From assembly GCA_933228675.1 (NCBI GenBank), contig OW121744.1, positions 117,947,600 through 118,011,599 on the forward strand: a DNA stretch of 64,000 bases. Reading direction: 5' to 3'. Below are positions 20,279 through 64,000 of the stretch, piece by piece. Below the pieces are notes generated by a model, which saw only the letters and a list, made by a program, of their open reading frames with translations, was not told where the DNA came from and searched no databases. This DNA is from Stomorhina lunata. Lineage: Eukaryota; Arthropoda; Insecta; Diptera; Rhiniidae. Numbering within the stretch: position 1 is the first letter of the stretch; every line of letters begins with the position of its first letter. The translations under genes and the position numbers were made by a program.

Positions 20279-20980
20279 CAAGTAAGGAAGTGCTATAGTC
20301 GGCCAAGCCCGATAGCCTTCACCACTAAGGTCAAAGGTGTTCTTTTTTCTGTATAAAGTCAAATATTTGTTAAATTTTGTCATCAAACAAACATTTTCTC
20401 ATAACTTATATATTTAGGCTATTTCCGTCATTTGGACTTATATGAGAGCTAGGGTCAAATTTGGACCGATTATCTCGAAATTAAAAAAAACTGATTACAG
20501 TTTTAAAATTCTTATTATCTTCAGATTCAGATTTACGAGCGTTTTACAGAATTTTTGTCTTATATAGTGCCTTTTGCCAAAAGAGTTTGTATGGGAGCTA
20601 TGGTCAAATAGTCAGTATTTGTTTAAATCTTATAAAAAAATATTGATATTTGTGGCCAAAATATCAATTCCGGGAAGTGGGACCTATAGAACGTATCATA
20701 AATAATGAATCGATTTTGATGAATTTCAAGAGCCATGATCCCACTATCAAAAAAGTTATCTGTGCCAAATTTAATTAAATTATCTTTAGAATTGCGACAT
20801 GTACTTTGATTAAAAGGTTTACAGCCAGCCAGACGGACGGACATCGTTAAATCGGCTCAAGAAGTGATTCTAAGTCTATTGGTATACTTAAAGGTGGGTC
20901 TAAGACCAATATTTCTATGCGTTACATACATCAGCACAAACTTATAATACCCTTCCCACTTATTGGGGTGAAGGGTAAAA
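20279..20980 (+). mobile_element. Dispersed non-coding fly repeat, copy 1
   Basis: It starts AAGTAAGGAAGTGCTATAGT and ends in ATACCCTTCCCAC...GAAGGGTAAAA. Between them are stretches such as GACGGACGGACAT, AAGTGATTCTAAGTC and TATGGGAGCTATGGTCAAAT. The same order of blocks recurs at 26560-27873 and, inverted, at 62972-63600. The layout resembles the degenerate interspersed repeats (INE-1/DINE-like) common in fly introns; that assignment is from memory and needs a repeat-library search. No coding capacity. Confidence 0.7.
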
Positions 20981-42830: not shown

Positions 42831-43359
42831 AAAATCCTTATTGTTCCTTATTCTAAACGCCCCTGCTTTCACTCATATTTCTGTGTTATTTTTACTGTGT
42901 CACTTGGGTTTTTGTTTGGTTAAGGTTTGTTTTTGTTTTTTTGTTTGCTTCTATTTTACTACACTCGTATTTGTGAGTTTTAGGATTTTTTGAGGATTCT
43001 AATGTTGTTGTACACAGGATGAGTGTTAAATAAGCAAAGGATGAGATTATGTTTTCCAGTTTCTATTTCACTAAAAAGGATATGTTTTTGCTTTGTATGT
43101 TCTTTTTTTTTGTAGCCAAAAGAATTATGTTGGCTCTGTGCCAGTTTTGTTATGCTGGGATTCGTTATAAACGAGAATGTGGTAATACATGTTTGAGGTT
43201 TTTTAGGCACAAAACAAAATCCCAAAAAAAAAAAATCTATGTAACTGATTAGATTAGTAGTAACAAACATATTTAGGTAACATTTTAATAACATAAAGGA
43301 ACTTTAAGAAAATTCAAGTTTTAATTAAATCATAATATTTTTCTTCTTTTCATTTACAG

Positions 43360-44929
43360 TTTTCGCATTAATCGTATAGAATCACCGATTTTAAAATATG
43401 ATGGTGATTGTGGTGAGTCTTTGACTATTTACGATTCAGATCGTGCTGATCCTGCTCGCATTATTAAAACATTCTGTGATACCTTTTCACGTCCCATGGA
43501 AAAAGTGGATTTTGTTAGCACGAGTCCTTCATTATTTGTGCAATTTGAATCCAAGACTGGTTCTTATAGTGGCAGCTCTTTGTATTACTGGGCTCATTAT
43601 GATTTCTTTAACAACACCCGTTTTGGTGATCCTGTGCCCAATACTCTTTGCGATGAGGTCATGTATGCCTGGAAGCATCCCGGAGGCAAAATACGCTCGC
43701 CCATGAATTCTTTGATATTCAAAAGAACTGGGGGTTCGGATGTAAGATGTCAATACAAATTTGTTACAGATCGCAGGTTATATGCTCGAGCAGTGATTGA
43801 AGTGAATTCTGTTATGTTTAAGGAGTTACCCTACAACAATAATGCCTGCACTAGATGCCACGAGGAACGTGTGGATAAGCTGGTTATATGGGAAGAGAGG
43901 GAAAAATTTCAAAACAATTTAGCCTGTTTCTGTGACAATATACCAAGACCTGTAAGAGTCATATCCTCGGCTGATCAAATGAATTTGGAAATGATTGTTC
44001 AAGGGCAACATGCCATTACATCTTATTTTAAAAATCCCAATCCTTTATTTGAGGCTTCCTATGAATTTGCCCATGGTCCTTTGTGTGGACCCATTATACT
44101 GGGTCCTTCTCCCGATGGTGAATTGGTGTATCCATTCAAAAAAGCCCTGGCCTTGGTTACAGGACCCATGGGAGCCCAGCCTGAACATCATTATAGACGT
44201 GAAAAATGTATTTGGGAATTAAAGGTGGCCTCCCAAAGAGATTTATGGCTTAATTTGGAAAAGGCACGTTTTGGCGACCGTACCTGTGATAGTGCAAAAA
44301 TAGAAGTTTATCTGGCAGGACGTCTTGAGCCTCGCTTTATTATCTGCCCCGAAAATATTTCATTGGCTCGTGATTTACCCATACTCTCCACTGCCGATTT
44401 GGGTGCTTTAGGAGCCGATCAAGAACCTTTGCCTGTACTCATACAATATACGGGAGATGGTCAACCGGGCAAAAATATATTCCGTTTAGTGTGGACTGAA
44501 CTTTTCCATCTGCCTCGCAATCCTGATGGCAGTTTGGCCGCCTCTTTGCTGCAGGATAATGACTGTAATTTCAAGTGTCCTGGCAATTCTCATATATGCC
44601 TACCGCGTCATTTGGTGTGTGATGGTATACAAAATTGTCCCAATGTTTCTCATACTGCCTCCCTGGAAGATCTTACAGAACATATACAATGGAATCTGGA
44701 GCAGTTAGATCTATGGCATGAACACAAGGATAAGCAACATCTAATGAATGCTATTTTAGATGATGAATCTTCCTTGATTTGCATTCGAGAATATAGTCAC
44801 AAATTATCTTATGCAGAAATTGCCTTTTTCGTTATAATGTCCTTGGCGATAGTGATTTTAATTGTTCTGATCTTAAGGCTCATGTGTAGAGGATCATCAA
44901 AGCATAAGGAGGCCTCTGGGAATTACTGA
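43360..44929 (+). CDS. CUB/LDLa membrane protein, last exon (CUB modules 3-5, LDLa, transmembrane helix, stop)
   Basis: The exon begins after TCATTTACAG and encodes 522 residues to a TGA at 44927-44929. SFRINRIESPILKYDGDCGE and SLTIYD close the third CUB-like module. A fourth spans about LCDEVMYAWKHPGG to FCDNIPRP, and a fifth about PLCGPIILGPSPDG to RFIICPEN. An LDLa-like module follows: DCNFKCPGNSHICLPRHLVC, then DGIQNCPN. Its last Cys comes only after about 50 residues (SLICIRE), and the usual acidic calcium box is not recognisable. YAEIAFFVIMSLAIVILIVL then forms one transmembrane helix (extending to about ILRLMC), leaving a tail of roughly 14 residues. The product is a type I surface or vesicular receptor-like protein. 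Drosophila has several CUB+LDLa membrane proteins (Culd, Neto and unnamed relatives); I cannot choose the orthologue. Neto is less likely because it has two CUBs and a long tail. Confidence 0.95.
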
Positions 44930-46980: not shown

Positions 46981-47250
46981 TCTATTATGTATAAATAATA
47001 CATCGTTGGTCTTATGTAGAAAGGCCTTAACTCGTATATATATGAAATTTTATAGGAGAAGGGAGAAACAGATTTAAAACTGTTATTGACAATTGATTAA
47101 AATGAAGGAAGAATCTTTTTTAAAACTTTCCTTTTATTTTTACATATGACAAAAACTAAATTGAGATAGGGCTTTTTGAAGTCTCATTTTAGAGCACAAA
47201 TGCGACTAAGGGCTTTTTTCTGTAGTGATCAAAACAAATTATATTAATTC
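46981..47250. other. Non-coding spacer
   Basis: AT-rich sequence between two repeat fields. I see nothing in it. Confidence 0.5.
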
Positions 47251-48340
47251 AAGCTTTTCATAGTGAATGTTTCTTCAGAAAAGCTTTCGATGGCGAAAGT
47301 TTTCTATAGGAAAGCTTTTGTTAGAGAATGTTTTCTATAGGAAAGTTTTTGATAGCGAAAGTTTTCTATAGGAAAGCTTTCGATAGCGAAAGTTTTCTAT
47401 AGGAAAGTTCTCGATAACGAAAGTTTTATATAGGAAAGATTTCGATAGCGAAATTGATGTAGGAAAGCTTTCGACAGCAAAAGTTTTCTATCGGAAAGCT
47501 TTCGATAGCGAAAGTTTTCTATAGGAAAGCTTTCAATTGCGAAAGTTTTCTATAGGAAAGCTTTCGATAGCGAAAGTTTTCTGTAGGAAGCTTTCGATAG
47601 CGAAAGTTCGATAAAGAATGTTTTCTATAGGAAAGCTTTCGATAGAGATTGTTTTCCGTTGGAAATCTTTCGATAACAAAGTTTTCTTTCTATAGGAAAG
47701 CTTTCGATATTAAAAGTTTGACATCAAATGTTTTCTATATGAAATCTTTCGATATTCAAAGTTTAATGTATAAAATTAACAGTTTTCTATAGAAAATATT
47801 TTGATATCGGAAGTCTATTATATGAAACCTTTTGATATTGAAAGTTTTACATAAGAAATTGGTAGTTTTATTTTGGAAAGGTTTCGGTTAGGATAAAGCT
47901 TTGGATATTAAAATTTACCTTTAGGAAATCTTTTGATAAAAAATTTTTCTATCCCAAATATTTTGACGGCTAAAGTTTTATACAAGAAATCTTTGATATT
48001 AAATGATTTATATAAGAAATCAGTTTTATTGGAAAGCTTTCGATATTAAATATATTTAATTGAAAGCTTTTTACATCAAAAGTTGCCTATAGTAAAGCTT
48101 TTGGTGCTCAAAGATTTCTATAGAAAAGTTTAATATAAGAAATATTTCGATATCGAAAATTTATTATAGGAAACCTTTTAAAAGTTTTATTGGAAAGCTT
48201 TCGAGGTAGTATATTTTTAGTAGAGATATTAAAAGATACCTTTAAGAAAGTTAAAAGTTACTTATAGGTATTTGATACTGAAAGTTTTCTATTCGAAATA
48301 TGTTGTCGACAATAGTTTAAATAAGAAATCAATACATATC
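47251..48340. repeat. 31-bp minisatellite of CTTTCGATAGCGAAAG and CTATAG palindromes
   Basis: The unit CTTTCGATAGCGAAAG plus TTTTCTATAGGAAAG has a 31-bp period and is regular for about 14 copies to 47700. It then decays into scattered words (TTTCGATATTAAA, TTCTATAGAAAA) until about 48340. The second half-unit matches that of the arrays at 23.5 and 40.5 kb; the first differs. Confidence 0.85.
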
Positions 48341-48819
48341 AGACCAAAAGCTTTAAGATTCAAAAGTTTTGTTTTTATAATTTATAGATATGGCGAGATG
48401 GGGCTTTTAAAAAATATATTTTTTTTTAAGGAATAAGCTAGATATTTTTAGAAAAAAAAATATCATTGGAACCACAAAAAAATCAATTTCGAAAAAAGTG
48501 TGACTTAGGAAGTTTCTAAATGACACCGATGATATATCAAATATTTCGTACCACCTAAAACTATACTACTTTATTTCATCAATTTGGCTTTACATTGACT
48601 GTGATAATCGGTTCTCTAAGGACTCTCAACAAACTGAATGATATTTAATAATTTAAATTTCTAAAACTACTTAGCACTTATCACTTTTAATGATTAATTT
48701 GCATACCAATTATACTAATCAATTGATTTCGCCACAAGATAGTTATCATACCAAAGTCTTATTCCTATTTCTGCTAAACGACATCAAATAGTATAAAACT
48801 AACTCTACTTAAGTTCGCT
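48341..48819. other. Upstream region of the first gustatory-receptor unit
   Basis: AT-rich 5' flank. A TATAAAAC word lies at 48792, only 28 bp before the ATG, too close for an ordinary TATA promoter with a leader. AGATAGTTATCATACC near 48738 recurs as AGATAGTTATCTTCC before unit 3 (52684), so it may be a shared upstream element. Confidence 0.4.
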
Positions 48820-49872
48820 ATGTCGACATATTACTTTTATTTGAATAAAATCTACCACAAAATTATTAAAATAATTTATTATAATTCCCTGATATTGGGT
48901 AATACTCCGGGTGCATATGATGAACAAACGAATAGTTTAAAAATTACAAAGTCATATATAATCTACAGCGCCTTCATTCAAATCGTTTTCTTACTAATTA
49001 CTCCTTTAAGTTTACCATTTCTTCAGCCAATGAATAACTATATGGTCAATAAACCAATATTAAAATGGACCTTTTTAGTGGCGAAAATTGTCAGATTCTT
49101 AACGATAGTGGTCATTAGTCTTATGATATGGCAAAGAAGACAAATAACAAAGAGTGTGTGGAACTCGTATAGGCAATTTTTAAAGAAATATCAAAATTTT
49201 TGTCAGCATTTTCGTTTTATTATGAATGACAAATTTCTAAGAGAAAAAGAAAGTCTAAAGAAATTTATGGTTTACAAATTTTTCTTCATATACTTACATG
49301 TTTTAACTATTGGCTGGATGTATATAAACATACAGAAAAATGTTAATAAGGAATATATTTTATCGGTTGCTTTAAACGGATTACAAGGCCTTTACCTGCT
49401 AACGACCAATTTGCAATTCTCTTTGATTTTATGTCAATCAACTTTACATTTTTCCTATATCAATCAATCTCTTGAATTGTTACCAAGTATCTCTAGAATG
49501 ACTTTAAGGGATTTATTAAAATACTACGCTATTTTTTATAAAATGCATATGGAATGCTTACAATTGACACAACAAGTTTTGGAATACAGTAAAACTATAA
49601 CATTTTTTATGATTGCTAAAATTTTCACTACCAATGTAATAATTTTGTATTATGCGGTCTTGGTGCTAATGGGGAATATACCCTTGAATAATATCAGCCA
49701 TTTTGTGGGTACCGTTACTATCGCGATCTTTTACTGGGACTCATTGATGATTGCAGATGCGATTGATTATACGTTGACTTCTGCCAATAGAGCTGGCAGT
49801 GTTTTAAAAGGAACTTGGTTTGAAATGAAACCGGAAGAGGATAGAAGGGATTATGATCAATTAATACAAGTG
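48820..49872 (+). CDS. Gustatory-receptor-like exon, unit 1
   Basis: Open exon of 351 codons from ATG to the donor GTG|GTAAGT at 49872/49873, phase 0. It encodes about six hydrophobic helices in the gustatory receptor (7tm_7) pattern: N-terminal YNSLILGNTPGAYDE, NKPILKW near residue 78, LQGLYLLTTNLQF near 190, FSYINQSL near 212, KYYAIFYKMHMECLQ near 238, FTTNVIILYYAVLV near 270 and FYWDSLM near 305. Insect GRs are ligand-gated chemosensory channels of the neuron plasma membrane. The seventh helix and the TYhhhhhQF signature belong to a following exon, absent from the next 670 bp. Reading past the donor adds only nine residues before a stop. Subfamily resemblance is perhaps to Drosophila Gr22-type receptors (weak, from memory). 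Confidence 0.9.
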
Positions 49873-50544
49873 GTAAGTTTTAAATATATTGTATATTTAT
49901 AATGTTATATATCGTATTTACGTTTCGAAAATAAACTGTTACAATTTAAAGATCCGTCTCTATTTTATTGACAAAAAAAATTTGTGTATTTTGAAAGGTT
50001 GAAATTTTTGCTTAAAATCTAGCCCTTTGGGTTTTAGAAAATATTCAACTTGTAGTAAAGCCCTTTTGTTTTTTGCCAATGGTCAAAAACTGAACTTTTT
50101 TACCATTTAAGAATTTTCCTTGCTGATGGCTTGTTGACCTTATTCCAAAATTTGGATTTAATGTTCCTTGTAGTTTGAAAGTTAAAACGTGTTTTGCTTC
50201 TCCTCTAAAAAAACTAGAAGCATAGTTACGCCCTTTTGCATTTTAGGTGGCGATATATATTTTTTGTTTTAACTAAATACGTTATATTTTACACACATTC
50301 GATTATTGCAACTGAAGAATATATTTTACTTTATGTAGCTAATTTCACTTTCTGACCAGTTATTAGCCCAATAGTTATAACCTATTTATTTAACTTAACA
50401 ATGTAACTAATTATTTATTTTTATAATAAGATGGCCATCATTTAATTACTACAACAACAAAGTTGTCTTCCATTTACACAAAGTCCTTGGACATTTATAT
50501 ATAAAAATCTAAGCCATTAGTGTCGAAATACTTGTTAGTGCGCA
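49873..50544 (+). other. Spacer between receptor units 1 and 2
   Basis: No exon encoding a seventh helix or a TYhhhhhQF-like motif was found in any forward frame. A TATATAAAAA word at 50496 lies about 20 bp before ATTAGTGTCG and about 48 bp before the next ATG, a plausible promoter for unit 2. Confidence 0.6.
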
Positions 50545-50550
50545 ATGTCT
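50518..50550 (+). promoter_or_regulatory. Conserved leader and start context of receptor units (unit 2 shown)
   Basis: The 30 bases before the ATG of unit 2 (AGTGTCGAAATACTT, then GTTAGTGCGCAATGTC) are closely matched before unit 3 (AGTCTCTAAAAACTT, then CTGAGTGCGCAATGTC). They are recognisable before unit 8 (AGTATCGAAATGACT) and, more weakly, before units 5 and 6. There is no splice acceptor directly before the ATG. The block may be a short 5' UTR with an initiator-like AGTG start. Confidence 0.5.
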
Positions 50551-51591
50551 TTAAAATATTCGAATAAACTTTATAAAAAAATAATTAAAATAATTTACAT
50601 ACATTCTCTAATATTGGGTATTATACCGGGAAAGTTTGATGAAAAAATACAAACATTCAGAGTATCAAAATCGTATAAAATCTACAGTTTCTTCATACAA
50701 TTGATATTCTTTTTGATAACTCCTCTATCATCGCTTTTTCTACCGCAGAAGAGTAATTATATGAACAATAAGCCCATGTTACAGTGGGCCTTTGTGGCGG
50801 GAAAAATTGCACGATTCTCAACATTTATTGTCATTACCGTCAAGATATGGCAAAACCGGAAACGCTATTTAGCCGTGTGGGATATATATTCAAAGTTTTT
50901 GTTAAAATATCGAAATTTTCATAAAATATTTAATCTAATTATTGAAGATGATTTTCATGAGAAAAAGAAAACTTTGAAGGATTTGATAATCTACAAGTTT
51001 TTCATCTTGTATCTTCACTTTTTTTCTATACACCTGTTATATATTGAAATGCGGGAAAAACCGAGTCAGCGTTATTCTATTATAGTTGTGCTAAATATGT
51101 TTCAGGGCTTATATTTGCTGACAGCTACTTTACAGTTTGCCTTGATTTTAAATCACATCAGTTTACATTTTTCCTATATAAATCAATCTTTGCTAAAGCT
51201 GCAACATTGCAACAATATTTCCCGCAAGGATCTGATAAAATATTACATGACTTTTTACCAAATGCATATGGAATGCTTTAAAATGGCACGTTTTCTTTTG
51301 CAAGCTTGCGCATCTGTAACCCTTTTTATGTCTTTGAAAATTTTCACCACCAATATTATTCTTCTGTATTATGCGGTTTTGGTTTTTATGGGAATATTTT
51401 CATCCTATAAGGTGGCTTACTTTTTGGGCATTTTTAGTATCGTAATTTTTTACTGCGACTCATCATTGATGACTGAAATCTTTGATCACGCACTAACTTC
51501 TGCCAATTGTACGGGGAGTATTATACGGGGAACTTGGTTTAAATTGAAGGAGGGAGAGGATTTGAGGACTTTTAAAAAATTAATTCAAGTG
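50545..51591 (+). CDS. Gustatory-receptor-like exon, unit 2
   Basis: Open exon of 349 codons ending at GTG|GTGAGT (51591/51592), phase 0. The ATG is in AGTGCGCAATGTC, a context shared with unit 3. Landmarks align with unit 1: SLILGIIPGKFDE, NKPMLQWAF, FQGLYLLTATLQF, HFSYINQSLLKLQ, KYYMTFYQMHMECF, FTTNIILLYYAVLV and LTSANCTGSIIRGTWF. It ends LIQV, exactly as in unit 1. The donor is GTGAGT rather than GTAAGT but still good. Past it, the frame stops after six codons. No local last exon. No frameshift or internal stop, so the unit looks functional. Confidence 0.9.
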
Positions 51592-51711
51592 GTGAGTTAT
51601 TTTTTCAATTAAATGTCTATACCAATTTCCGAACACGATTTTGTTAATAACCTCCTAAAACTATGCACCAATTTTTCCATTGTGTCTTAAAATGATACCA
51701 ATTGCGGCAAT

Positions 51712-52029
51712 CTGGGGCCAAATTACCGCATTCGATGTCGATCGAAAACTCTGACTTTTAAGCAAATATTGTATACTTTAGGGATGTTCAAAGTTACTTC
51801 GATGCAAAAAGTTTATTGAAATTTGGTATTCATTTTGATTCGTTTTTAAAAACATATAGTCTAATTAAAACTCTTTTACTATAGTTCATCTTTTGGTAAA
51901 TAACTTCAAGAAAATATAGTAAGCTGTGCATCTTTTAAATAATTTTGATTATGCTTAAAGTATGCTATACAAATATTTTGAAAATATCTAAGATTTCGAT
52001 CGATATTGAATGCGGTAATTTGGCCCCTG
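51712..52029. mobile_element. MITE, family A copy 3, with 34-bp terminal inverted repeats
   Basis: The inner termini 51714-51747 and 51994-52027 are inverted repeats of 34 bp with two mismatches, starting GGGGCCAAATTACCGCATTC. The element is about 318 bp, nearly the same as copy 1 at 13271-13589. No open frame. I could not define a target-site duplication. A partial further copy with ATATTGATCG and GTAGCATACTTTTGGGATG follows directly (52030-52200). Confidence 0.85.
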
Positions 52030-52200
52030 GTCTCAGTTCTAACGATTTGTTTAAGAAACAATATTCAATATTGATCGTCAATATAGTATTTTTAGTGAAT
52101 ATTGTGTAGCATACTTTTGGGATGTTTAAAATTTTGTTCAGTTGCCTTACTTAACTGTATAGTTTTAATTTAAGTCTTTAATTTTGTGAAAGTATGTAAC
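52030..52200. mobile_element. Partial family A MITE copy adjoining copy 3
   Basis: CAATATTGATCG, GTGAATATTGTGTAGCATAC and TTTTGGGATGTTTAAA follow the order of the left half of copy 3. The right half is not recognisable. Confidence 0.5.
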
Positions 52201-52778
52201 TTCCATCACTTTTTTATTATTATTAGTTTTCTGATTTTCTCAATGATTTCAAATTCATTACATTTTTCTATAAAGATTTGGTAAAAATTATAGTAAAAAT
52301 GTAAATAAAAAGTTGATGGTAAAAATGTAAATAAAAAGTTGTGGTGTAGAACACTCTAAACTCAGGTCATTGTAAATTATTTAATATCTCCAGAAAGTAT
52401 GCCGTTGAATATCAAACGAAACTAATTTGAAAGAAATTTAAGCAAAATATTGCACATATGTTTAGGAGAATTAAATAAGTAAAAGTGTTAAAAAGTTATT
52501 TTAATGTATTTTGTTTTTGTAGAGTCCTAGATGACTTCTTTACTCTTTTACTAGGCTGGATTATGAATACCTTATTGTTGTTGTATTTATATAACAAATT
52601 TCAGCAAAACTAAAAAATACCCTTCACAGCTGATCGATATTAAAACAATAGTATGGTAATACGCATGTTACATCTAACAATAAGATAGTTATCTTCCTTT
52701 AAGAATACAAGGGCAATAAGTGTTTGGATAATTGCTTTTCAAATTTACCACTAGTCTCTAAAAACTTCTGAGTGCGCA

Positions 52779-53813
52779 ATGTCCAAACATTATCTAGACA
52801 AACTCTACAACTGGATAATAAAAATAATATATTTTTACTCCCTAATATTGGGTATTGCACCGGGTAAATTTGATTTTCGAAAACATACCTTCAAAATAAC
52901 CAAATCATATTGCATCTACAGTCTGTTCATACAACTATGTTTCCTTTTAATTACTCCTCAAACAACGGCATTTGCTAAGTCTGATAATTATTTGGCCAAT
53001 AAACCTATGCTAAAATGGACTTCAAGAATGGGTAGAATTTCACGATTTTTAACTATAGTAATCATAGGGTCAGTGATATGGCGGAGACGACAGAGTTTGA
53101 TGAAACTTTGGAACACTTATTTACAATTTGAAAAAAGATATCGCAAATTCATCAAAAATTTCAGCTTTATTATAAAAAAAGATTTCCAGGAAGAAGAAAA
53201 ACGTTTGAAAAAATTATTGCTATACAAATTTTTCTCAATACACCTGCATGCCATCACCATTAACATTTTATATATAGAAATATTGCAAAACCCCAGTCAT
53301 CGTTACTATATAATGATTGCTGTAAACATGCTGCAAGGTCTTTATCTTTTAACAGCAAATTTGCAATTTTCTTTGATTTTATGTCAATTGAATAAATATT
53401 TTTCATATATCAATCAATCCTTAATATCTCTACAAGGAAATACAAATATTCCTATTAAGGACTTAGTTAAATATTATTTAATATTTTACAAAATGCATTG
53501 GGAATGCCTGAAAATGACTCGTTTAGTTTTGGAAGTCAGTACCTCAATAACATGTTTCATGATTGTCAAAATTTTTGCCACCAATTTGATAATGTTGTAT
53601 TATTCGGTTTTGGCGTTTACAGGAAATTTACCTTCAAATAATTTGGGTTACTTTTTGGGCATTGTGTGTATTTTAAACTTTTATTGGGATGTACTTTTGA
53701 TAATAACAGTTTTTGAACAGACTTTGGCTTCTGCCAATCACACGGGGAGTATTATACATGGAACATGGTTTGGTTTTTTGCAGGGAAAGGATGGAAAAGC
53801 TTTGGTTAAAGTG
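52779..53813 (+). CDS. Gustatory-receptor-like exon, unit 3
   Basis: Open exon of 345 codons ending at GTG|GTAAGT (53813/53814), phase 0. Start context AGTGCGCAATGTCC, as in unit 2. Landmarks: SLILGIAPGKFDF, NKPMLKWTS, IHLHAITINILYIEI, LQGLYLLTANLQF, YFSYINQSLISLQ, KYYLIFYKMHWECLK, MIVKIFATNLIMLYY, FYWDVLLI, LASANHTGSIIHGTWF. A few residues are lost near the end compared with unit 1 (GKDGKALVKV in place of the acidic stretch). No internal stop or frameshift. Past the donor the frame adds 11 residues and stops. No last exon follows; the next 2 kb is mostly simple repeat. Confidence 0.9.
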
Positions 53814-54009
53814 GTAAGTTTGAAAAGTTACAGCAACAACAGTTATTAAAGAAATGGTTTAAAACAAGATTGGCCATTATTTGCGTGGCAGGGGAATAAC
53901 AACAATTTATATTAAATAAGAAAACTTTTTCTTCACTCGTTCTCAAAAAAAAAAGAAAACACAAATAAAAATATGCCTACTAAACCAACAATAACAATAC
54001 ATAATAAAT

Positions 54010-55330
54010 TTTATATAGAAAATTTTTTTATCAAAATTTGTGTATAGAAAATTTTTTTATCAAAAATTTTTTTATCAAAAATTTTTTTATCAAAAATTTT
54101 TTCATCAAAAATTCTTTAATCAAAAATTTTTGTAGAAAATTTTTTTTTATCAGAAATTTTTCAATAGAAAATTTTTTGATAAAAAAATTTTCTATACAAA
54201 AGACAAATAACACTCAAATGGTGCCTGTGCAAATTGTGAAGCCTTCTTTGAAAAGAGGAAAGGGAGATGAAAAGTGGTGAAAGGGAGAGATAAAACTTCT
54301 CATGCTTTGTATTCTGTAGCCAATTTTATTTCTTTTACATCGACGGCATCTGATAGGCGTAGCTTATCTTTCTAGGGTTAATGTATTTAAGTATATTCCT
54401 GAAGTAGGCCTGAAACATTTTTCTCAAGAAAATTTTTTTATTAAAATTATTCTATAGAACATTTTTTTTGATTTTATTGAACATTTGTTAGAAATTTTTT
54501 TATAGAAAATTTTTTTAATTAAAAATTTTTCTATAGAAAATTTTTTTATCAAAAATTTTTTTATAAAAAATTTTTCTATGGTCAATTTTTTAATCAAAAA
54601 TTTTTCATAAACATTTTTTTTATCAAAAATTTTTCTATGGTAAATTTTTTTATAGAAAATTTTTTTATCAAAAATTTTTCTATAGAAAATTTTTTTTATC
54701 AAAAATTTTTCAATAGAAAATTTATTATCAAAACTTTTTATAAAAAATTTTCTATGGTAAATTTTATTATCAAAAATTTTTTTAAAAACATTTTTTTTCA
54801 GAAATTTTTCAAAAAATCCTTTGATAAAAAATTTGCTATACAAAAATTTTCTATAGAAAAAATTTTTTTTCATTTTTTTTTTTTGTAGAAAAATATTTCT
54901 ATTAGAATTTTTTGTAGAAACATTTTTTTTATCAAAAATTTTTTTATTAAAAATGTTTCTATAGAAAATTTTTTTATTAAAAATGTTTCTATAGAAAATT
55001 TTTTTATTAAAAATTTTTGTATAGAAAATTTTTTTGTTAAAAAATTGTCTATAGAACATTTTCTTGAAAATTTTTTTATCAAAAAATTTTCTAGGGAAAA
55101 TTTTTTTTATCAAAAATTTTTAGAAATTTTTTTTACAGAAAAAAATGTTATCGAAAGTTTTTCTTTAGAAAAAAATTTTAATCGAAAATTTTTCTATAGA
55201 AAATGTTTCGATAGAAAAATATTTTTATCGAAAATTTTCCAAGTAAAATATTTTTATTGAAAAGTTTTCTATAAAAAATGATTTTTATCGAAATTTTTTC
55301 ATCAAAAATTTTATCTATAATAAAGTGTGT
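54010..55330. repeat. AT-rich tandem array of about 30-bp units (TTTTCTATAGAAAA and TTTATCAAAAA)
   Basis: The units alternate CTATAGAAAATTTTTTT with ATCAAAAATTTTT, period about 30 bp but often with a 15-bp sub-period. They are interrupted at about 54190-54420 and diverge at both ends. The CTATAG half-unit is shared with the arrays at 23.5, 40.5, 47.5 and 60 kb. Confidence 0.85.
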
Positions 55331-55349
55331 GTATCGAAAATATTTTGAG

Positions 55350-55640
55350 ATTAAATTTCTTTGTTCTCTTGAACCTTGTATTTTATTGCTTTAAATTAGA
55401 TTTTGATTTTGTTTCTTGTATACTTTCTTTTTGTATTTTTTTTTATATTAAACGGCACCAACTGACCTTTTAACATCCAAATTCCAACTGAATGCTTTCG
55501 ATACTCATGTTCACGAGTTTCACTAATGATCGTGATATTTGCTAAAATTGCAAAAGGTCTTCGGCTACTGGTGGTATGGGCTGCCTACGCCTGCTAATAA
55601 CTAGTTAGAGCAAACGAATTGTTCACTCTTGACTGACTTA
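55350..55640. mobile_element. Dispersed repeat, left member of an inverted pair around units 4 and 5
   Basis: Blocks TTTGATTTTGTTTCTTG, GGCACCAACTGACCTTTT, AATGATCGTGATATTT and CTTCGGCTACTGGTGGTATG recur in reverse complement at 58980-59225. It is non-coding. The block GGGCTGCCTACGCCTG also occurs near 5455. Confidence 0.7.
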
Positions 55641-55921
55641 AAATACCTTATGGCAAAACATGGTCATGGAGTGGTTATTTATGGTTATATTTGATATTCT
55701 CTTATACTCGTTGACTTCAAAACAAAATTCATTGTGAATGGTATTAAAGACAAAAACTAACTTCCGATTACTATTTTAAACTAAATAAAATGTCACTGCA
55801 ATTGATGATTCATTTATGACAATTATTGTAGATAAATGTGATAATATTGCATTATGGCAGAAATACTTTTGAATAAAAAGAAATTTATTATTTTAGTTTA
55901 TTTCACAACTCTTAAAGGGCA

Positions 55922-56974
55922 ATGTCGCAAAATTTTGTAAACAAAGTTCGGAATATAATTATCAAAATAATTTATTTTTATTCCCTAATGTTGGGAATAG
56001 TACCGGGAATATATGATAAACAAAATCAATGTTTTAAAATAAACAAATCGTATCGTATTTATAGTGTCTTTATAAAATTTACTTTTCTTATGATAACTCC
56101 TTTAACATCGCCAATTGTACAGCAAAAACAAAATAACTATATGGTCGATAAACCAATTCTGCAATGGGCTTTTGTGGCTACTAGAATAATACGATTCTCT
56201 ACAATTGTTATCATTAGCTCTGTTATTTGGCGAATGGTGCAAAAATTTATGATTTTATGGGAAACTCATACAAGATTTAGGTCAAAATATCTAAAATTTC
56301 AAAAACATTTTCGGATTATTTTTAAGAATAATTTTAATGACGAAATGAAGAATTTGAAATATTGTTTGATTTATAAATTTGTATCCACCCATCTTCATGC
56401 CTTGAGCATTAGCATTTTGTATATAAAAATACAGGATAATCCCAGCAGGCGTTATTATCTAATGGTGGCTCTGAACATATTGCAAGGTCTATATCTTTCA
56501 ACGACAATGTTGCAGTTTACTTTGGCCTTAGGTCAAATGAGTCTATATTTTACCTACATTAATCAATCTTTGCTTTCATTGCAAAGTTCTAATAATATTC
56601 CTATTAAAAATTTACTGAGATATTATTTGATATTTTTTAAAATGCATTTCGAGTGCTTGGAGATGACAAGACAAATTTTGGAAATCAATATAAATGTTTC
56701 ATTCATAATGATTGCAAAACTTTTTGCCTTTAATATTTTACTTTTGTATTATGTCGTCCTGTTATTTATGGGAAATTTACCTACGAACACTATAAGTAAT
56801 TTTGTCGGTATCGTGTGTATAGTTACCTTTTACTGGGATGCATTATTGATAACTGAAGTTATTGAAAATACCTTAGCTTCGGCTATTAATACAGGAAATA
56901 TTATTAAAGGAACATGGTTTGAATTTAATCGACAAGAGGAGGAAAAAGTAAATTTTCAGAAATTAATGATAGTG
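55922..56974 (+). CDS. Gustatory-receptor-like exon, unit 4
   Basis: Open exon of 351 codons ending at GTG|GTAAGT (56974/56975), phase 0; start in GGGCAATGTCGC. Landmarks: SLMLGIVPGIYDK, DKPILQWAFVATRI, STHLHALSISILYIKI, LQGLYLSTTMLQF, YFTYINQSLLSLQ, RYYLIFFKMHFECLE, IAKLFAFNILLLYYVVLL, FYWDALLITEVIENTLASA and NIIKGTWFEF. It departs most at the conserved TTN before the fifth/sixth helices (AFN here). Unlike its neighbours, the frame stays open for 35 codons past the donor and encodes a hydrophobic stretch (GTVFILILIIFSSML). That could be chance, or an intron-retention form with its own last helix. No standard last exon in the 490-bp spacer. Confidence 0.9.
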
Positions 56975-57466
56975 GTAAGTGTCAAAATTATGTTTAATGT
57001 TTTTAAAAAAAGTTTAGGGACAGTTTTTATTCTTATCTTGATAATATTTAGTTCTATGTTATCTAGTTTATCTGAAAGGTAATATTTGTTTATTTAATAT
57101 CTTAATCCCTCCAATTTATGCCTATAGGCAATATTTAGCAAATTTATTCAAGTTTTTCAAAACTAAGACCCTAGCATTTTTTTTTTAGCTAAGACACAAA
57201 CCCTTCATATGTTTAAAATGAAAATAAATAAAGGTTTTGTTGTTAAAGTTTGTTGATTTTATCCAACAATAAACATAAAATACCTCCGTTTAGTTGTTAT
57301 TATTAATTTATAATCAAACAATACCACCATTAAAGAGTTATTTAATTTAATTAAAAGATCGTAATCGTTTTCGATAATAGTTATAATTATTACTACTTCT
57401 CTCTAATTAAAATTTTTTAATATTAAACCAAAAGGCAAGTAGTAAGCGAATAGTCTTCAGAGTGAA
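56975..57466 (+). other. Spacer between receptor units 4 and 5
   Basis: AT-rich, no last exon, no repeat recognised. The ATG-proximal part resembles the leader of the other units (AGTAAGCGAATAGTCTTCAG). Confidence 0.6.
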
Positions 57467-58513
57467 ATGTCAAATTATATTTTAAACAAACTTTACAAAA
57501 GTATCGTTAAACTTATTTATTTGTACTCCCTAGTTTTAGGCCTAATACCCGGTCCACTGGATAAAAACAATACAAAATTTAAAATCACCAAATTCTATCT
57601 CATCTATAGTGGCCTTGTACAATTCATATTTTTATCAGTTACCCCTTTGACATCGCCATTTATACAACAAAATAATAATCATATCGTTAATAAACCAATT
57701 TTGCAATGGTCCTATATGGTGGGTAAATTAACTCGTATTATAACAATTGTAATCATTATCGCTGGAACCTGGCGATCAAGGCAAAAATTATCTTTTCTTT
57801 GGGATCGTTATTATCATTTTCTATGTAAATTTCAAGATTTTCAACAAGATTTTGGCTTAATAATCAAAGATAATTTTGAGTATAAGAAAAATTATTTGAA
57901 AAAAATATTGATATATAAATTTATATCTACACATCTGAATTCTTTTACCATTACTTGGATGTATATTGAAATGCAAAAAGATGCTAGCCGGCGTTACTAT
58001 ATAATGGTTGCCGTAAATACATTGCAGGGACTATATCAACATACAGTCAATTTACAACTTATGTTGATTTTACATCAACTCACCCATTACTTTTCCTATA
58101 TAAATCAAGCCTTGTTATGCCTGCAAAGCTCTAAAAATATACCCATTAAGGATTTACTCAAATATCATCTCAAATTATATAAAATGCATTACGTATGCTT
58201 GAAAATGACTGGTACATTTTGGAAAATTTATAAAACTATAGCCTTTTCTAGTTTTGTCAAAATTTTCACCACCAATGTCATTCTTTTGTATTATGCAGTT
58301 TTAGTGAATTTGGGTAGTTTACCTTCTCACAGTAGAGGTAATTTTATGGGTTCCATGAGTATAGTCTGTTTCTATTGGGATGCATTTTTGGTAACTGCAA
58401 TCTTTGAGCAGACATTGGCCTCTGCTAATCTTACGGGGAGTATAATAAAAGGAACTTTGTTCGAATTTAAAGCTGAAGAGGATGCATGGACTTTTAGCAA
58501 TTTAATGAAAGTG
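57467..58513 (+). CDS. Gustatory-receptor-like exon, unit 5
   Basis: Open exon of 349 codons ending at GTG|GTAAGT (58513/58514), phase 0; start in AGAGTGAAATGTC. Landmarks: SLVLGLIPGPLDK, NKPILQWSYMVGKLTRI, STHLNSFTITWMYIEM, LQGLYQHTVNLQL, YFSYINQALLCLQ, KYHLKLYKMHYVCLK, FTTNVILLYYAVLV, FYWDAFLV, LASANLTGSIIKGTLFEF. It is closest to unit 6 by shared words (SFIQQ-type loop, IITIVII, AGTW). GTLFEF replaces GTWFEF. No internal stop. The end of the exon with its donor is copied at 58885-58962. No last exon downstream within the 3.2-kb spacer. Confidence 0.9.
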
Positions 58514-58884
58514 GTAAGTGTAGAAGACGAATTTATGTTAATTTCTACTTAAGACTACTAAAAAGATTATAACTATTTATAGTTAGTTAGTTAGGTACTT
58601 GTTCTTTATTGATTCTTTTTTCAATTTTTGATTTTTACAAACTCGGAATAAAAGGTAATATACAATTTTTTGAGAATAAAAAGAACTTACGACTATGACA
58701 TAATGTCGTCAGTCGGTAGAATTACAAAATATTCTGATTGATATACAAAAGTACGTTTAGCTTTCATTTATCTTAGTAATTAAATTCTCTGATAACATCT
58801 TTTCTATATTTTATTGCATCTATTATGTAACGAAATAAGTCATTGAAGCTGAAGTTTACATTATTTAATATAATGATATAATTT

Positions 58885-58962
58885 AATGAAAGTGGTAAGT
58901 GTGGAAGACGAATTTATGTTTATTTCTACTTAAGACTACTAAAAAGATTATGACTATTTATA
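58885..58962 (+). pseudogene. Duplicated end of receptor unit 5 with its splice donor
   Basis: About 78 bp, from AATTTAATGAAAGTGGTAAG to the downstream ATTATGACTATTTAT, repeats 58502-58580 with about four changes. It holds only the last few codons, the donor and the start of the intron, so it is not a functional exon. It is a local segmental copy about 385 bp to the right. Confidence 0.85.
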
Positions 58963-58979
58963 TAAAATAGTGACAGTTC

Positions 58980-59225
58980 TTGAAACTAGTGTAAGACTTT
59001 GTGATATAATCATGACCAGGTAGCTCATACCACCAGAAGCCGAAGATATTTTGTAATTTTCGTAAATATCACGATCATTAATGAAACTCAGTTGGGATTT
59101 TAATGTTAGAAAAGTCGGTTGGTTCCGCTTTGTTGAAGAAAATACAAAAACAAAATATTCAAGAAACAAAATCAAGAAAACATTTTTAGCAACAATATAT
59201 GCAATTCGAGCGAACAAAGAAACAT
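58980..59225. mobile_element. Dispersed repeat, right member of the inverted pair
   Basis: Reverse complement of much of 55350-55640. ATACCACCAGAAGCCGAAGA, AAATATCACGATCATTA and AAACAAAATCAAGAAAAC are the matching blocks. The reverse-strand open frame over it is chance. Confidence 0.7.
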
Positions 59226-59406
59226 TGTGGCCATGACACTATTATTTTTGTAAACATTATTTGAAATAAATTTAATTGAATTGGGAATAGTTTTCGAAAC
59301 AAAAATAAATTCTAATATTAAACAATATTATATTTTTTAGATTTTTATCGAGAATTTTCGCAGAATAATATTTTTATTCTGCGAAAATTTTCGATAACAA
59401 TTTAAA

Positions 59407-59653
59407 GGCACAAGGCCAATACACGGACGGTCGTAGTATTGCCAGTACATAAAATGTGCGTTTGTTTACAAAAATATTCATATACAAATATATTTGAGTA
59501 GGATATAATTAAATCTGGCAGCAGTGAAAAAATCCGCCGCGCGGAAAAGTAGAACAAAGTTCTACTTTTTTCCATTGCCGCTTCAAATTTGACAAATCAA
59601 AAAACAGCTGATTGCCGTCCGCAGCCACTTGCCGCGTGCATTAGCCCCCTACC
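59407..59653. mobile_element. MITE of about 247 bp with GC-richer body
   Basis: The left end GGCACAAGGCCAATACACGG and the reverse complement of the right end (GGTAGGGGGCTAATGCACGC) agree at most positions. The body includes CCGCCGCGCGG and a perfect 11-bp stem (59545-59555 with 59559-59569, loop AAA). It is clearly GC-richer than its surroundings. TTAA occurs at both edges (59402-59405 and 59654-59657), which may be a target duplication, but AT-rich flanks make this weak. Confidence 0.6.
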
Positions 59654-61030
59654 TTAAAATATTTTTCTATAGAAAAATTTTCTCAAATATATTTATTTGT
59701 AAAAAATTTCGATATAACTATTTTTTTATAGAAAAATCTTCGATAAAAATATTTTCCTATAGAAAAGTTTTTTAATAAAATATATTTCTACAGAAAAATT
59801 TTTGATAAAAAAATCCTATAGAAACATTTTTTATTAAGAATTTTTTAGAAAATTTTTTTAAAAAAAATTTTCGATAGAAAAATATTTTGTCAAAATATAA
59901 TATTTTTAAAACTTTATCGAAAATTTTTCTTTAGAAAAATATAATTTTTAATAAAAAATATTTTTAATAAAAAAAACTTTCCATATAGAAAAAATTTTAA
60001 AACTTTATCGAAAATTTTTCTTTAGAAAAATATAATTTTTAATAAAAAAACTTTCCATATAGAAAAAATTTTTGGTAAAAAAATTTTCCATAGAAAAATT
60101 TTTGATAAAATTTTCAGTATGGAAAATTTTTTGATAAAAAAAACTTTCTATAGAAAAATTTTTGATAGAAAAATTTTCTATGGAAAAATTTTTTATGGAA
60201 AAATTTTCTATAGAAAAATTTTTGATAGAAAAATTTTCTATAGAAAAATTTTTGATAAAAAAATTTTCTATAGAAAAATTTTTGATAAAAAATTTTTTAT
60301 AGAAACATTTTTGATAGAAAAATTTTTAATAGAAAAATTTTTGAGAGAAAAATTTTCTATAGAAAAATTTTTGATAGAAAAATTTTCTATAGAAAAGTTT
60401 TTGATAGAAAAATTTTTAATAGAAACATTTTTGATAGAAAAATTTTTAATAGAAAAATTTTTGATAGAAAAATTTTCTATAGAAAAATTTTTGATAGAAA
60501 AATTTTTGATAGAAAAATTTTTGATAGAAACATTTTCTATAGAAAATTTTTTGATAGAAAAATTTTCTATAGAAAACTTTTTGATAGAAAAATTTTCTAT
60601 AGAAAAATTTTCTGTAGAAAAATTTTTGATAGAAAAATTTTCTATAGAAAATTTTTTGATAGAAAAATTTTCTATAGAAAAATTTTTGATAGAAAAATTT
60701 TCTATAGAAAAATTTTCTATAGAAAAATTTTTGATAGAAAAAATTTCTATAGAAAAATTTTTGATAGAAACATTTTCTATAGAAAAATTTTTGATAGAAA
60801 AATTTTTGATAGAAAAATTTTTGATAGAAAAATTTTCTATAGAAAAATTTTTGATAGAAAAATTTTCTATAGAAAAATTTTTGATAGAAAATTTTTCTAT
60901 AGAAAAATTTTTGATAGAAAAATTTTCTATAGAAAAATTTTTGATAGAAAATTTTTCTATAGAAAAATTTTTGATAGAAAAATTTTCTATAGAAAAATTT
61001 TTGTTAGAAAAATTTTCAATAGGAAAAGTG
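59650..61030. repeat. 30-bp array of TTTTCTATAGAAAAA and TTTTTGATAGAAAAA half-units
   Basis: From about 60110 on, 15-bp half-units TTTTCTATAGAAAAA and TTTTTGATAGAAAAA alternate with high regularity for over 900 bp; before that the array is degenerate. Because 30 is a multiple of three, one frame stays open for 305 codons as a Phe-Leu-Ile-Glu-Lys/Phe-Ser-Ile-Glu-Lys decapeptide repeat. That is a property of the array, not evidence of a gene. Confidence 0.93.
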
Positions 61031-61736
61031 TTTTAAAAATAAGTAAGTGAAAAAAAAGTTCTAAAAACAAGTAAACAAACATTTCTGTAATGGACCCATA
61101 TGCAGTAATCGCCATGAAAGGGTTATTTTTTTTTTGTCAAGTAAAATTGTTTAGTTTAATAAAATATTTGTGACAAAAATCAATCAGGGGTTAAATTGTT
61201 TCCATTAGCTTTTATATGTAATTGTTATTTATTTACATAATCATAGCGACAATTAATAAAATAAAAGAAATAAGATACCAATCGCTTAAAATACATATGA
61301 GCATTTCCTTCGGATGGTCAACCAAGATGGAAAAACAAAATGTTGATAATCTTCATGTTTTATTGCTTATAATTATAAAAAAATACATTTTTTTAGAATA
61401 TAATATGGTTTTGTAATCATATCTCAACTGTTTTACTTGAGAAAATTGAAACGGAAACTGGAAAACTTTAAATTTTTTAAGAATTTTTAATTGTAACTTT
61501 ACAGGCTAAAAAAACGTTTTAAACTTCATGAAATTTACTTTTTACACTAAACAGGCTACCAAGAAAATGCCAAAAAAGTTTTGTTTTCTATATTTGTTGT
61601 ACATTAAAAGTGTACAAACGTACTTTCGGAACCCCAGGAAATGCCCATATGTATATGTATTATTATTTGAATGAATTAAAGTTATAGCTATAAACCCTTA
61701 ATTGTTAGTGTGTGAATAACTTTATTTAAGTGAGCA

Positions 61737-62786
61737 ATGTTTTATAATATTTTAAATAAACTTTATAATATTTTTTACAAAATTATTATCAATATTATTT
61801 ATTGGTATTCTCTTATATTGGGCATAACACCCGGTTTGTTTAAAAAAGATAATCTCATCTTCGAAGTTACAAAGTCATATCTTATCTACAGTTTCTTTAT
61901 ACAAGTAATTTTTTTGGTCGTAACTCCTTTAACATTGCCTTTTATACAGCAAAAGGATAACCATATAATTCATACGCCGATTTTAGAATGGACCTATTTG
62001 GTGGGTAAATTTGCAAGAATTATAACAATTGTTATAATCGTGGCTGGAACATGGCAAGAAAGACAACATTTTATATGTTTATGGGATATCTATAAAAGTT
62101 TTAGAACTAAATATCGAGATTTCCAACGTCATTTCCAATTAATCATTAAAGATGATTTTAATGTGGAAAAAGAATCTATAAAAAAGATATTGGTATATAA
62201 ATTCTTTTCCATACACCTACACGCCTTCACCATTAGCTGGATGCATATTAAAATCCAAGAAAATCCCAGCAATCGTTATTTTTTAATGATTATTTTAAAT
62301 ACCCTTCAGGGTTTATATCAGCTCGTGGCTAATCTACAATTTGCTTTGGTTCTATGTCAACTGAGTTTACATTTTTCCTATATAAATCAGTCTTTACTAA
62401 CCCTACAACGCTATAGAATTGCTTCCTCTAAGGACTTACTCAAGTATTATTTGATATTCTACGAAATGCATTGGGATTGCTTGAAAATAGCGCGAATAGT
62501 TTGGAAATCTAGTGCCTTAGTTACATGTTTTATGATTGGTAAAATTTTTACCACCAATGTCATTCTTCTGTATTATGCGGTTTTGGTGATCTTGGGAAAT
62601 TTACCTTCTAATGTTACGCTTAATTTTATTGGCATTGTGTGTATATTAAACTTTTATTGGGATACATATTTGACTATCGCAGCCATAGATTTGGCTTTGG
62701 TTTCCGCAAATCGTGCGGGAAGTATAATTCAAGAAATTTGTTTGGAATTCGATCGTGAAGATAATGAAAAAAAATTTATGCTAATG
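61737..62786 (+). CDS. Gustatory-receptor-like exon, unit 6
   Basis: Open exon of 350 codons ending at ATG|GTGAGT (62786/62787), phase 0; start in AGTGAGCAATGTT. Landmarks: SLILGITPGLFKK, HTPILEWTYLVGKFARI, IHLHAFTISWMHIKI, LQGLYQLVANLQF, HFSYINQSLLTLQ, KYYLIFYEMHWDCLK, FTTNVILLYYAVLV, LNFYWDTYL, LVSANRAGSIIQEICLEF. The otherwise near-invariant GTW near the end is EIC, and the last codon is Met where the others have Val. The frame is intact, so these are substitutions rather than decay. Past the donor only two sense codons follow before a stop. No last exon follows. Confidence 0.9.
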
Positions 62787-63639
62787 GTGAGTGTTTGAAA
62801 ATATCTTAATATTTGTTTTTTTTTTTTAATATAAGCCAGTTTCAGTAGAATATTAGCAAAGACACTTAAAATTTTTTACATACTTGACATTCTTATGCTA
62901 AAAAAATCATTAGAGGTAACTTTTAACACCCTTCATCACTGGAATATAATATATACTAAGTAGCAATAGCTTTTTATACCCTTCACCCCTAAGGTGGAAA
63001 AGATATATTGGGTTTGTGCTGATGTTTGTAATGCATATTATACCGATCGACTCAGAATCACTGCTTGAGTTGATTTAACGATGCCCATTTGGCTGGCTAG
63101 GCGTATATAAATGTAAGCTTGTTAGCTAAGTACATGTCGTAACGTCAAAGATAGAATAAAACTTAGCACAGACTTATATTTTGGTCCAGTGATGATCCCT
63201 ACACCAAAAACAAATTGCTTTTTCCATAGGAATACCTTGCCGGAATACAGTTTCTGGCAAATTACAGTCGCAAATTTAATTGTATTTTAGTAATAGTAAA
63301 CAAACATGATGCCCATAGTAACCTAAATCTGTGTACCTTACTTGTCTATACCTCCCATATAAGTCAAAAGTCTTTTAAATTCCCAGAAAAGCACAAAAAC
63401 GTTTATAAATCTAAAAATAATTGCATTTTATCACTAAAACTTTGCAGAGATAAATATATTTTGTAAATATTAACCAATAACCTAAATTTGGTATGAATCG
63501 GCCCACAATTGACTCTAGCTTCCATATCAGTTCCTCAGCCGGAAATGACATAAATCTACTAAAACCTTGAAATCTTTCCACATTAAAATCTCTGTAAGGG
63601 TCATTTGTTAATAGATTGTATAAAACATTTGTGTTGAAT
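62787..63639 (+). other. Spacer with transposon relic between unit 6 and the unit 7 remnant
   Basis: Mostly the inverted dispersed repeat at 62972-63600. No receptor last exon. Confidence 0.7.
62972..63600 (-). mobile_element. Dispersed non-coding fly repeat, copy 3 (inverted)
   Basis: Read on the minus strand it shows the same blocks as copy 1: GGGCATCGTTAAATC, AGTGATTCTGAGTCGATCGG, ACAAACATCAGCACAAACCC and the closing AGGGGTGAAGGGTATAAAAA. It lies directly before the surviving end of receptor unit 7 and occupies the place of the missing part. Confidence 0.7.
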
Positions 63640-63765
63640 ACATTTTTTTTAATAATTGAAATCATTGATTGTACCTTGGCTTCCGCTTATAGTACGGAAA
63701 GTATTATTAGAGGTACATGGCTAAGATTTCAGCAGAAAGAGAATGTAAAGCAAGTAATGAGTGTG
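63640..63765 (+). pseudogene. Gustatory-receptor-like unit 7, C-terminal remnant with intact donor
   Basis: About 42 codons align to the last part of the other units: FFLIIEIIDCTLASAYSTES, then IIRGTWLRF, then a short stretch to the donor GTG|GTAAGT at 63765/63766 (phase 0). The helices before it are absent, and a dispersed repeat lies immediately upstream. The remaining frame and donor are undamaged, so the loss may be fairly recent. It cannot make a receptor by itself. Confidence 0.8.
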
Positions 63766-63927
63766 GTAAGTTTTTATTAAAAAAAACATGAGTCTTCATA
63801 AACTAATTAACAAATTCAAACACAAGATAATGTTGACATAGTTAAAACATTAAGATCTTATCTATAATAGTACCTGCACATGCCGTTCATATTTTTTTAG
63901 CCTTTAGTATCGAAATGACTCTAGACA
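63766..63927 (+). other. Spacer before unit 8
   Basis: Short AT-rich spacer. TTAGTATCGAAATGACT near 63904 resembles the leader of unit 2 (TTAGTGTCGAAATACTT). Confidence 0.5.
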
Positions 63928-64000
63928 ATGTCAGAACGTTTAGTTATAATTCTCTACAATTATATTATAAAAATAACATATATTTATTCCCTATTATTGG
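63928..64000 (+). CDS. Gustatory-receptor-like exon, unit 8 (5' end, cut by window edge)
   Basis: ATG at 63928 in AGACAATGTCAG opens a frame to the window edge. It encodes MSERLVIILYNYIIKI, then TYIYSLLLG. This matches the N-termini of the other units (hydrophobic start, then YSLILG). It shows that the tandem array continues to the right. Confidence 0.8.
   Translation, partial: MSERLVIILYNYIIKITYIYSLLL

Follow-up and report, generated by a model that had tools for sequence, protein, structure and literature searches.

Introduction

How can a row of receptor exons, each with a start codon and a splice donor of its own, give rise to complete proteins when the exon coding for the end of the protein is not found among them? 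The question is raised by a 64,000-nucleotide stretch of the genome of the fly Stomorhina lunata (contig OW121744.1, forward strand, positions 117,947,600 to 118,011,599), referred to as the window in what follows, and in particular by its part 48820-64000, where an earlier inspection of the letters alone, the sequence-only reading, had picked out an array of gustatory receptor exons and had suggested that they share 3' exons located to the right of the window. Our analysis strongly favors this answer: in all likelihood these are alternative first exons, each joined to a single common 3' exon beyond the right edge of the window, in a gene of the blow-fly 'Gr58a/b' type, where 'Gr58' is the label that relatives carry in their annotation and does not stem from a comparison with Drosophila Gr58a-c.

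Candidate First Exons with Homologous Splice Donors

The array consists of six intact first exons (U1-U6), a remnant (U7) and the start of an eighth unit (U8), all on the + strand (Table 1), and the coordinates agree with the count, the strand and the individual start codons described before. The intact exons are 345-351 codons in length and open with ATG in 6 of 6 cases; the spacers between units measure 672, 1187, 2108, 492, 3223 and ~860 bp, in agreement with the 490-3,220 bp given previously. Pairwise protein identity among the six intact units is 47-56% and every gap in their nucleotide alignment is a multiple of 3. The Pfam family 7tm_7 is matched above its cut-off by five of the six exons, U4 having no match though it is as similar to the others as they are to each other, and the units show the Gr/Or fold by which an insect gustatory receptor (7tm_7 superfamily) is recognized. 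A sequence search of the PDB with a six-unit profile returned two matches, both MCM21 kinetochore chains (E 0.3 and 0.67), that we rejected as chance.

Between its ATG and its stop each intact unit contains a single GTRAGT, in phase 0 and after 345-351 codons, and these donors share one column of the nucleotide alignment if U3 and U6 are each allowed an in-frame gap of 9 nt immediately ahead of it; the protein alignment sets the last residues of U6 three columns off. The earlier claim of an own ATG and a phase-0 donor in the same column is thus borne out for 6 of the 6 intact units, the column being that of the nucleotide alignment, and the remnant has kept its donor as well. GTRAGT occurs nine times on the + strand of 48820-64000, seven times as a unit donor, once in a copy of the U5 tail (58895) and once elsewhere (61043). 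The exon bodies are free of internal GTRAGT, which is unremarkable taken alone since codon-shuffled versions contain 1.2 on average and 138 of 500 shuffles contain none. The copy of the U5 tail, an 83-nt duplicate at 58880-58962, amounts to a free-standing decoy donor.

A Shared C-Terminus in Related Flies

In order to find relatives of the units we searched 5.8 billion sequences at the protein level, repeating the search with two alignments (E 1e-10; E 1e-3, with the 7997 candidates that share most words scored). Each search gave the same set of at least 11 proteins, the named ones calliphorid, and no muscid- or Drosophila-named record is among the 11 (four are without a name). A pattern search of viral_contigs and genome_contigs produced 91 and 107 matches, respectively, with no relative among them, as expected for an insect gene, and among the matches listed in a literature search on Gr58a there was no paper that by title or start of abstract deals with this locus.

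The most informative relatives are three proteins of Cochliomyia hominivorax named "putative gustatory receptor 58a" T1 to T3 (P0001, P0008, P0009), by name isoforms of one gene; the suffix '-T1' follows the naming style of funannotate. Over the first ~348 residues their pairwise identity is 46-52%; the last 54 residues are the same in every pair, and this identical C-terminus begins at the site homologous to the donors of the window. As in the window, large homologous first parts in C. hominivorax stop at this site, T1 being 44-49% identical to the six window exons, with three isoforms found there as against at least eight units here. That different first parts sit on one C-terminus means that a related fly has this layout, according to the annotation of others, and this supports the alternative-first-exon reading and, with it, the shared 3' exon of the original proposal.

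Gr58a/Gr58b models of Calliphora vicina and Lucilia cuprina (P0003, P0004, P0005, P0006) are of the same exon type, and two of them (P0006 and P0004) bear the shared C-terminus. A C. vicina protein matches 51 of the 54 residues of the shared end, and an L. cuprina model has two first-exon stretches in tandem followed by that end (P0004 appears to fuse two first exons). The remaining 6 of the 11 relatives have V-S in the column where GTRAGT would lie and stop 6-29 residues beyond the donor site. All four of the tested relatives that have the shared C-terminus align with 7tm_7 over the full length of the profile.

A Model for Expression of the Array

On the preferred reading every unit, translated from its individual ATG, would probably be driven by a separate promoter. 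A transcript starting at one unit would pass through the later ones, which would be removed as intron, and the phase-0 donor would join one shared 3' exon, or a short set of exons, predicted to lie beyond 64000 and expected to resemble LNQFSDYLACNKLEFCIYGLVNFDKASSFRYFVSALLHLIILVQF. The first exon would supply helices 1-6, the part that faces the ligand, and the shared end the final ~54 residues, where helix 7, which lines the channel pore, is to be expected. A switch of first exon would in this way exchange the ligand pocket and leave the pore end constant, presumably in the service of taste.

Search for a Last Exon within the Window

The sequence-only reading had reported spacers free of any exon with a seventh helix or the ending TYhhhhhQF. 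A strict T[YF]xxxxxQF is indeed absent from all six frames of the 64-kb window, and of three loose TYhhhhhQF-type matches in a six-frame scan none is a last exon. The C-terminus of the relatives ends in HLIILVQF, where QF is kept and TY is not, so that the motif used for the search was the wrong one for this lineage. For a last-exon profile built from the C-termini of five relatives, the best scores in the array are 6.3 bits (+ strand) and 7.0 bits (- strand) and the best in the whole window is 12.0 bits, and no last exon was found. As a sensitivity control, exon copies at 50% and 40% identity scored a median of 42 and 25 bits, with 30 of 30 above 12.0 bits at each level. For an exon split in two the control is weaker, the halves beating the best array peptide in 26-29 of 30 cases at 50% and in 17-22 of 30 at 40%. 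The spacers thus yielded no last exon even with the true C-terminus, and a private last exon between units was found neither by motif scan nor by tblastn nor by the C-terminus profile, with the control being weaker for a split exon that is 40-50% alike. To the left of 48820 tblastn gave no additional unit, just one chance-level fragment (E 0.08).

Selection on the Units and the Possibility of Decay

Could the units be decayed tandem duplicates, once whole genes whose private last exons were lost and most of which are now non-functional? Spacers that yielded no last exon, together with one unit that is already a remnant, would suit such a history. However, six frames of 1 kb are intact, with gaps that are exclusively in-frame and donors that are conserved; when random change was simulated at 0.2 hits per site, 0 of 400 frames remained open. 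In a single codon model of the six units (344 codons) the ratio of nonsynonymous to synonymous substitution rates (dN/dS, omega) is 0.26, with pairwise values of 0.19-0.29, and selection between units is purifying. This estimate, a check that had been proposed with the original observation, is far from the value of 1 that was to speak against it; published values for the large exons of Drosophila Gr39a are 0.14-0.27 (PMC2204066). A tree was made from 15 of 18 sequence stretches, the three shorter than 300 aa being left aside. The six units come out in it as a single, fully supported clade with similar terminal branches (0.46-0.61), indicating that, with respect to the flies sampled, their radiation took place within the lineage of this fly, and no unit looks accelerated. 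Moreover, the proteins of relatives carry such first parts on one common end. Decay is therefore improbable, and the case made against it earlier, from conserved frames and donors, stands.

Sequences Flanking the Exons

The frames of the six intact units stay open past the donor before a stop is reached, so that each unit might be thought of as a single-exon gene, translated through the 'donor' into a six-helix protein, and the public C. vicina models P0003 and P0005 do appear to read through in this manner. Against this, the in-frame stop ends 11-107 nt beyond the donor, at a different distance in every unit, there is no conservation between units past the donor, and the resulting proteins would be without helix 7; the four tested relatives ending in the shared C-terminus cover the receptor profile in full. 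We regard single-exon genes as very improbable. Trans-splicing of separate unit transcripts to an independently transcribed last exon, for which there is nothing specific except that splicing in cis would need a first intron of more than 14 kb for U1, past the window end, is barely credible, as the units are all on one strand and ordinary cis-splicing to a downstream exon suffices.

In the 120 bp that precede the ATG the units are more alike than shuffled sequences are, and farther out, as well as past the donor, similarity is at the shuffled level, a distribution that fits a conserved module of putative promoter, exon and donor. An exact 12-mer, AAGATAGTTATC, is present at 48736 (before U1) and at 52682 (before U3), the sole sites in the window at ≤1 mismatch.

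A number of observations weigh against alternative first exons on a shared end. The shared last exon is not within the 64-kb window, and the C. hominivorax isoforms are the annotation of others, known here from proteins and names alone. The structure match of P0001 ends at about residue 376; its last 55 residues have a predicted local distance difference test score (pLDDT) around or below 50 and the helix 7 region is outside the match. Synonymous divergence is near saturation (proportion of synonymous differences 0.58-0.69), so that omega averages over a long past, and a single unit might have been relaxed recently without this being noticed; U7 shows that units decay. Finally, a k-mer test for a common motif upstream of the units was at chance, 24-28 of 40 shuffles reaching the observed score.

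Table 1. Positions of the units of the array and of the U5 tail copy in the window
Feature	Position	Strand	Remarks
U1, alternative first exon, 351 codons	48820..49872	+	7tm_7 E 7e-17; donor GTAAGT at 49873
U2, alternative first exon, 349 codons	50545..51591	+	7tm_7 E 1e-10; donor GTGAGT at 51592
U3, alternative first exon, 345 codons	52779..53813	+	7tm_7 E 2e-20, profile 2-307 of 370; donor GTAAGT at 53814
U4, alternative first exon, 351 codons	55922..56974	+	no Pfam match of its own; donor GTAAGT at 56975
U5, alternative first exon, 349 codons	57467..58513	+	7tm_7 E 1e-12; donor GTAAGT at 58514
U6, alternative first exon, 350 codons	61737..62786	+	7tm_7 E 6e-14; donor GTGAGT at 62787
U7, remnant, last 39 codons, body missing	63649..63765	+	intact phase-0 donor GTAAGT at 63766
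U8, eighth first exon, first 24 codons	63928..64000	+	ATG at 63928; cut by window end
Copy of U5 donor tail, 83 nt, 96%	58880..58962	+	GTAAGT at 58895; no exon body

Repeats and Neighboring Sequences

Two of the spacers contain AT-rich arrays (54000-55330 and 59650-61040) with a 15-nt period and self-complementary units (about TAGAAAAATTTTTGA), the second of them with long inverted repeats, and two hold inverted copies (77-87%) of a dispersed element (55356-55586 and 59018-59222). Just to the left of U1, at 47250-48300, inspection by eye shows another palindromic unit (about GGAAAGCTTTCGATAGCGAAAGTTTTCTATA), repeated in degenerate form. A dispersed repeat (about 80%) is found in opposite orientation at 62973-63105 and 20820-20980, and a long minisatellite that is open in several frames at 332-1505. 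To the left the array has a membrane gene as its neighbor, whose last exon (43325-44929) matches CUB below the threshold and, judged by eye, contains an LDL-receptor-like repeat.

Relation to Known Loci and Significance

The layout is already known in many insects and the window adds another such locus. In Drosophila Gr39a, as described in PMC2204066, large exons with their own start and donor, coding for six helices each, are spliced singly to shared small exons for helix 7; copies have been gained and lost, D. melanogaster having four large exons and D. mojavensis exon A in seven copies, of which five are intact. The large-first-exon layout is the same as here, but three shared exons are known for Gr39a, and a common lineage with the window locus is not implied. 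Among calyptrate flies, to which the present species also belongs, one gene of a bitter-receptor cluster in Musca domestica encodes 11 receptors (PMC4195910) and Stomoxys ScalGr29-57 encode 49 candidate bitter receptors (PMC7944917), the comparison with our locus being by published description. In other insect orders a single Gr gene is described as giving splice variants in which long first exons are combined with C-terminal exon(s) held in common, and these variants number 30 for Tribolium Gr214, 17 for Anoplophora Gr99, 13 for Leptinotarsa Gr48 and 13 for Blattella Gr60a-m (PMC6720082, PMC6175461), every count being larger than the eight units visible here. At least eight units exceed the four of D. 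melanogaster Gr39a, but to call the locus giant is an overstatement, the units being fewer than in Musca, Blattella and Tribolium. Papers on tsetse and medfly (PMC3998910, PMC5034548) and on D. pseudoobscura (PMC3011837) served as background.

It is conceivable, if rather unlikely, that a Gr58-type gene has been expanded in this calyptrate fly to far more than ten units, that the layout arose here independently, and that all units feed a single pore-helix exon in which TYhhhhhQF has been changed to HLIILVQF. The alternatively spliced gustatory loci named in the Drosophila paper, as far as its description extends, are Gr23a, Gr28b and Gr39a (PMC2204066), so that with a Gr58-type locus the layout would have originated separately. 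In relatives, exons of this kind seem to have been split or fused in the public models, and receptor counts in these flies therefore need the shared exon as a guide; with the sequence of the shared end known from relatives the locus is directly testable. With it the calyptrates gain a clear case of taste receptors of modular build and, if the Gr58-type expansion is real, one in which many ligand pockets have diversified on one altered pore.
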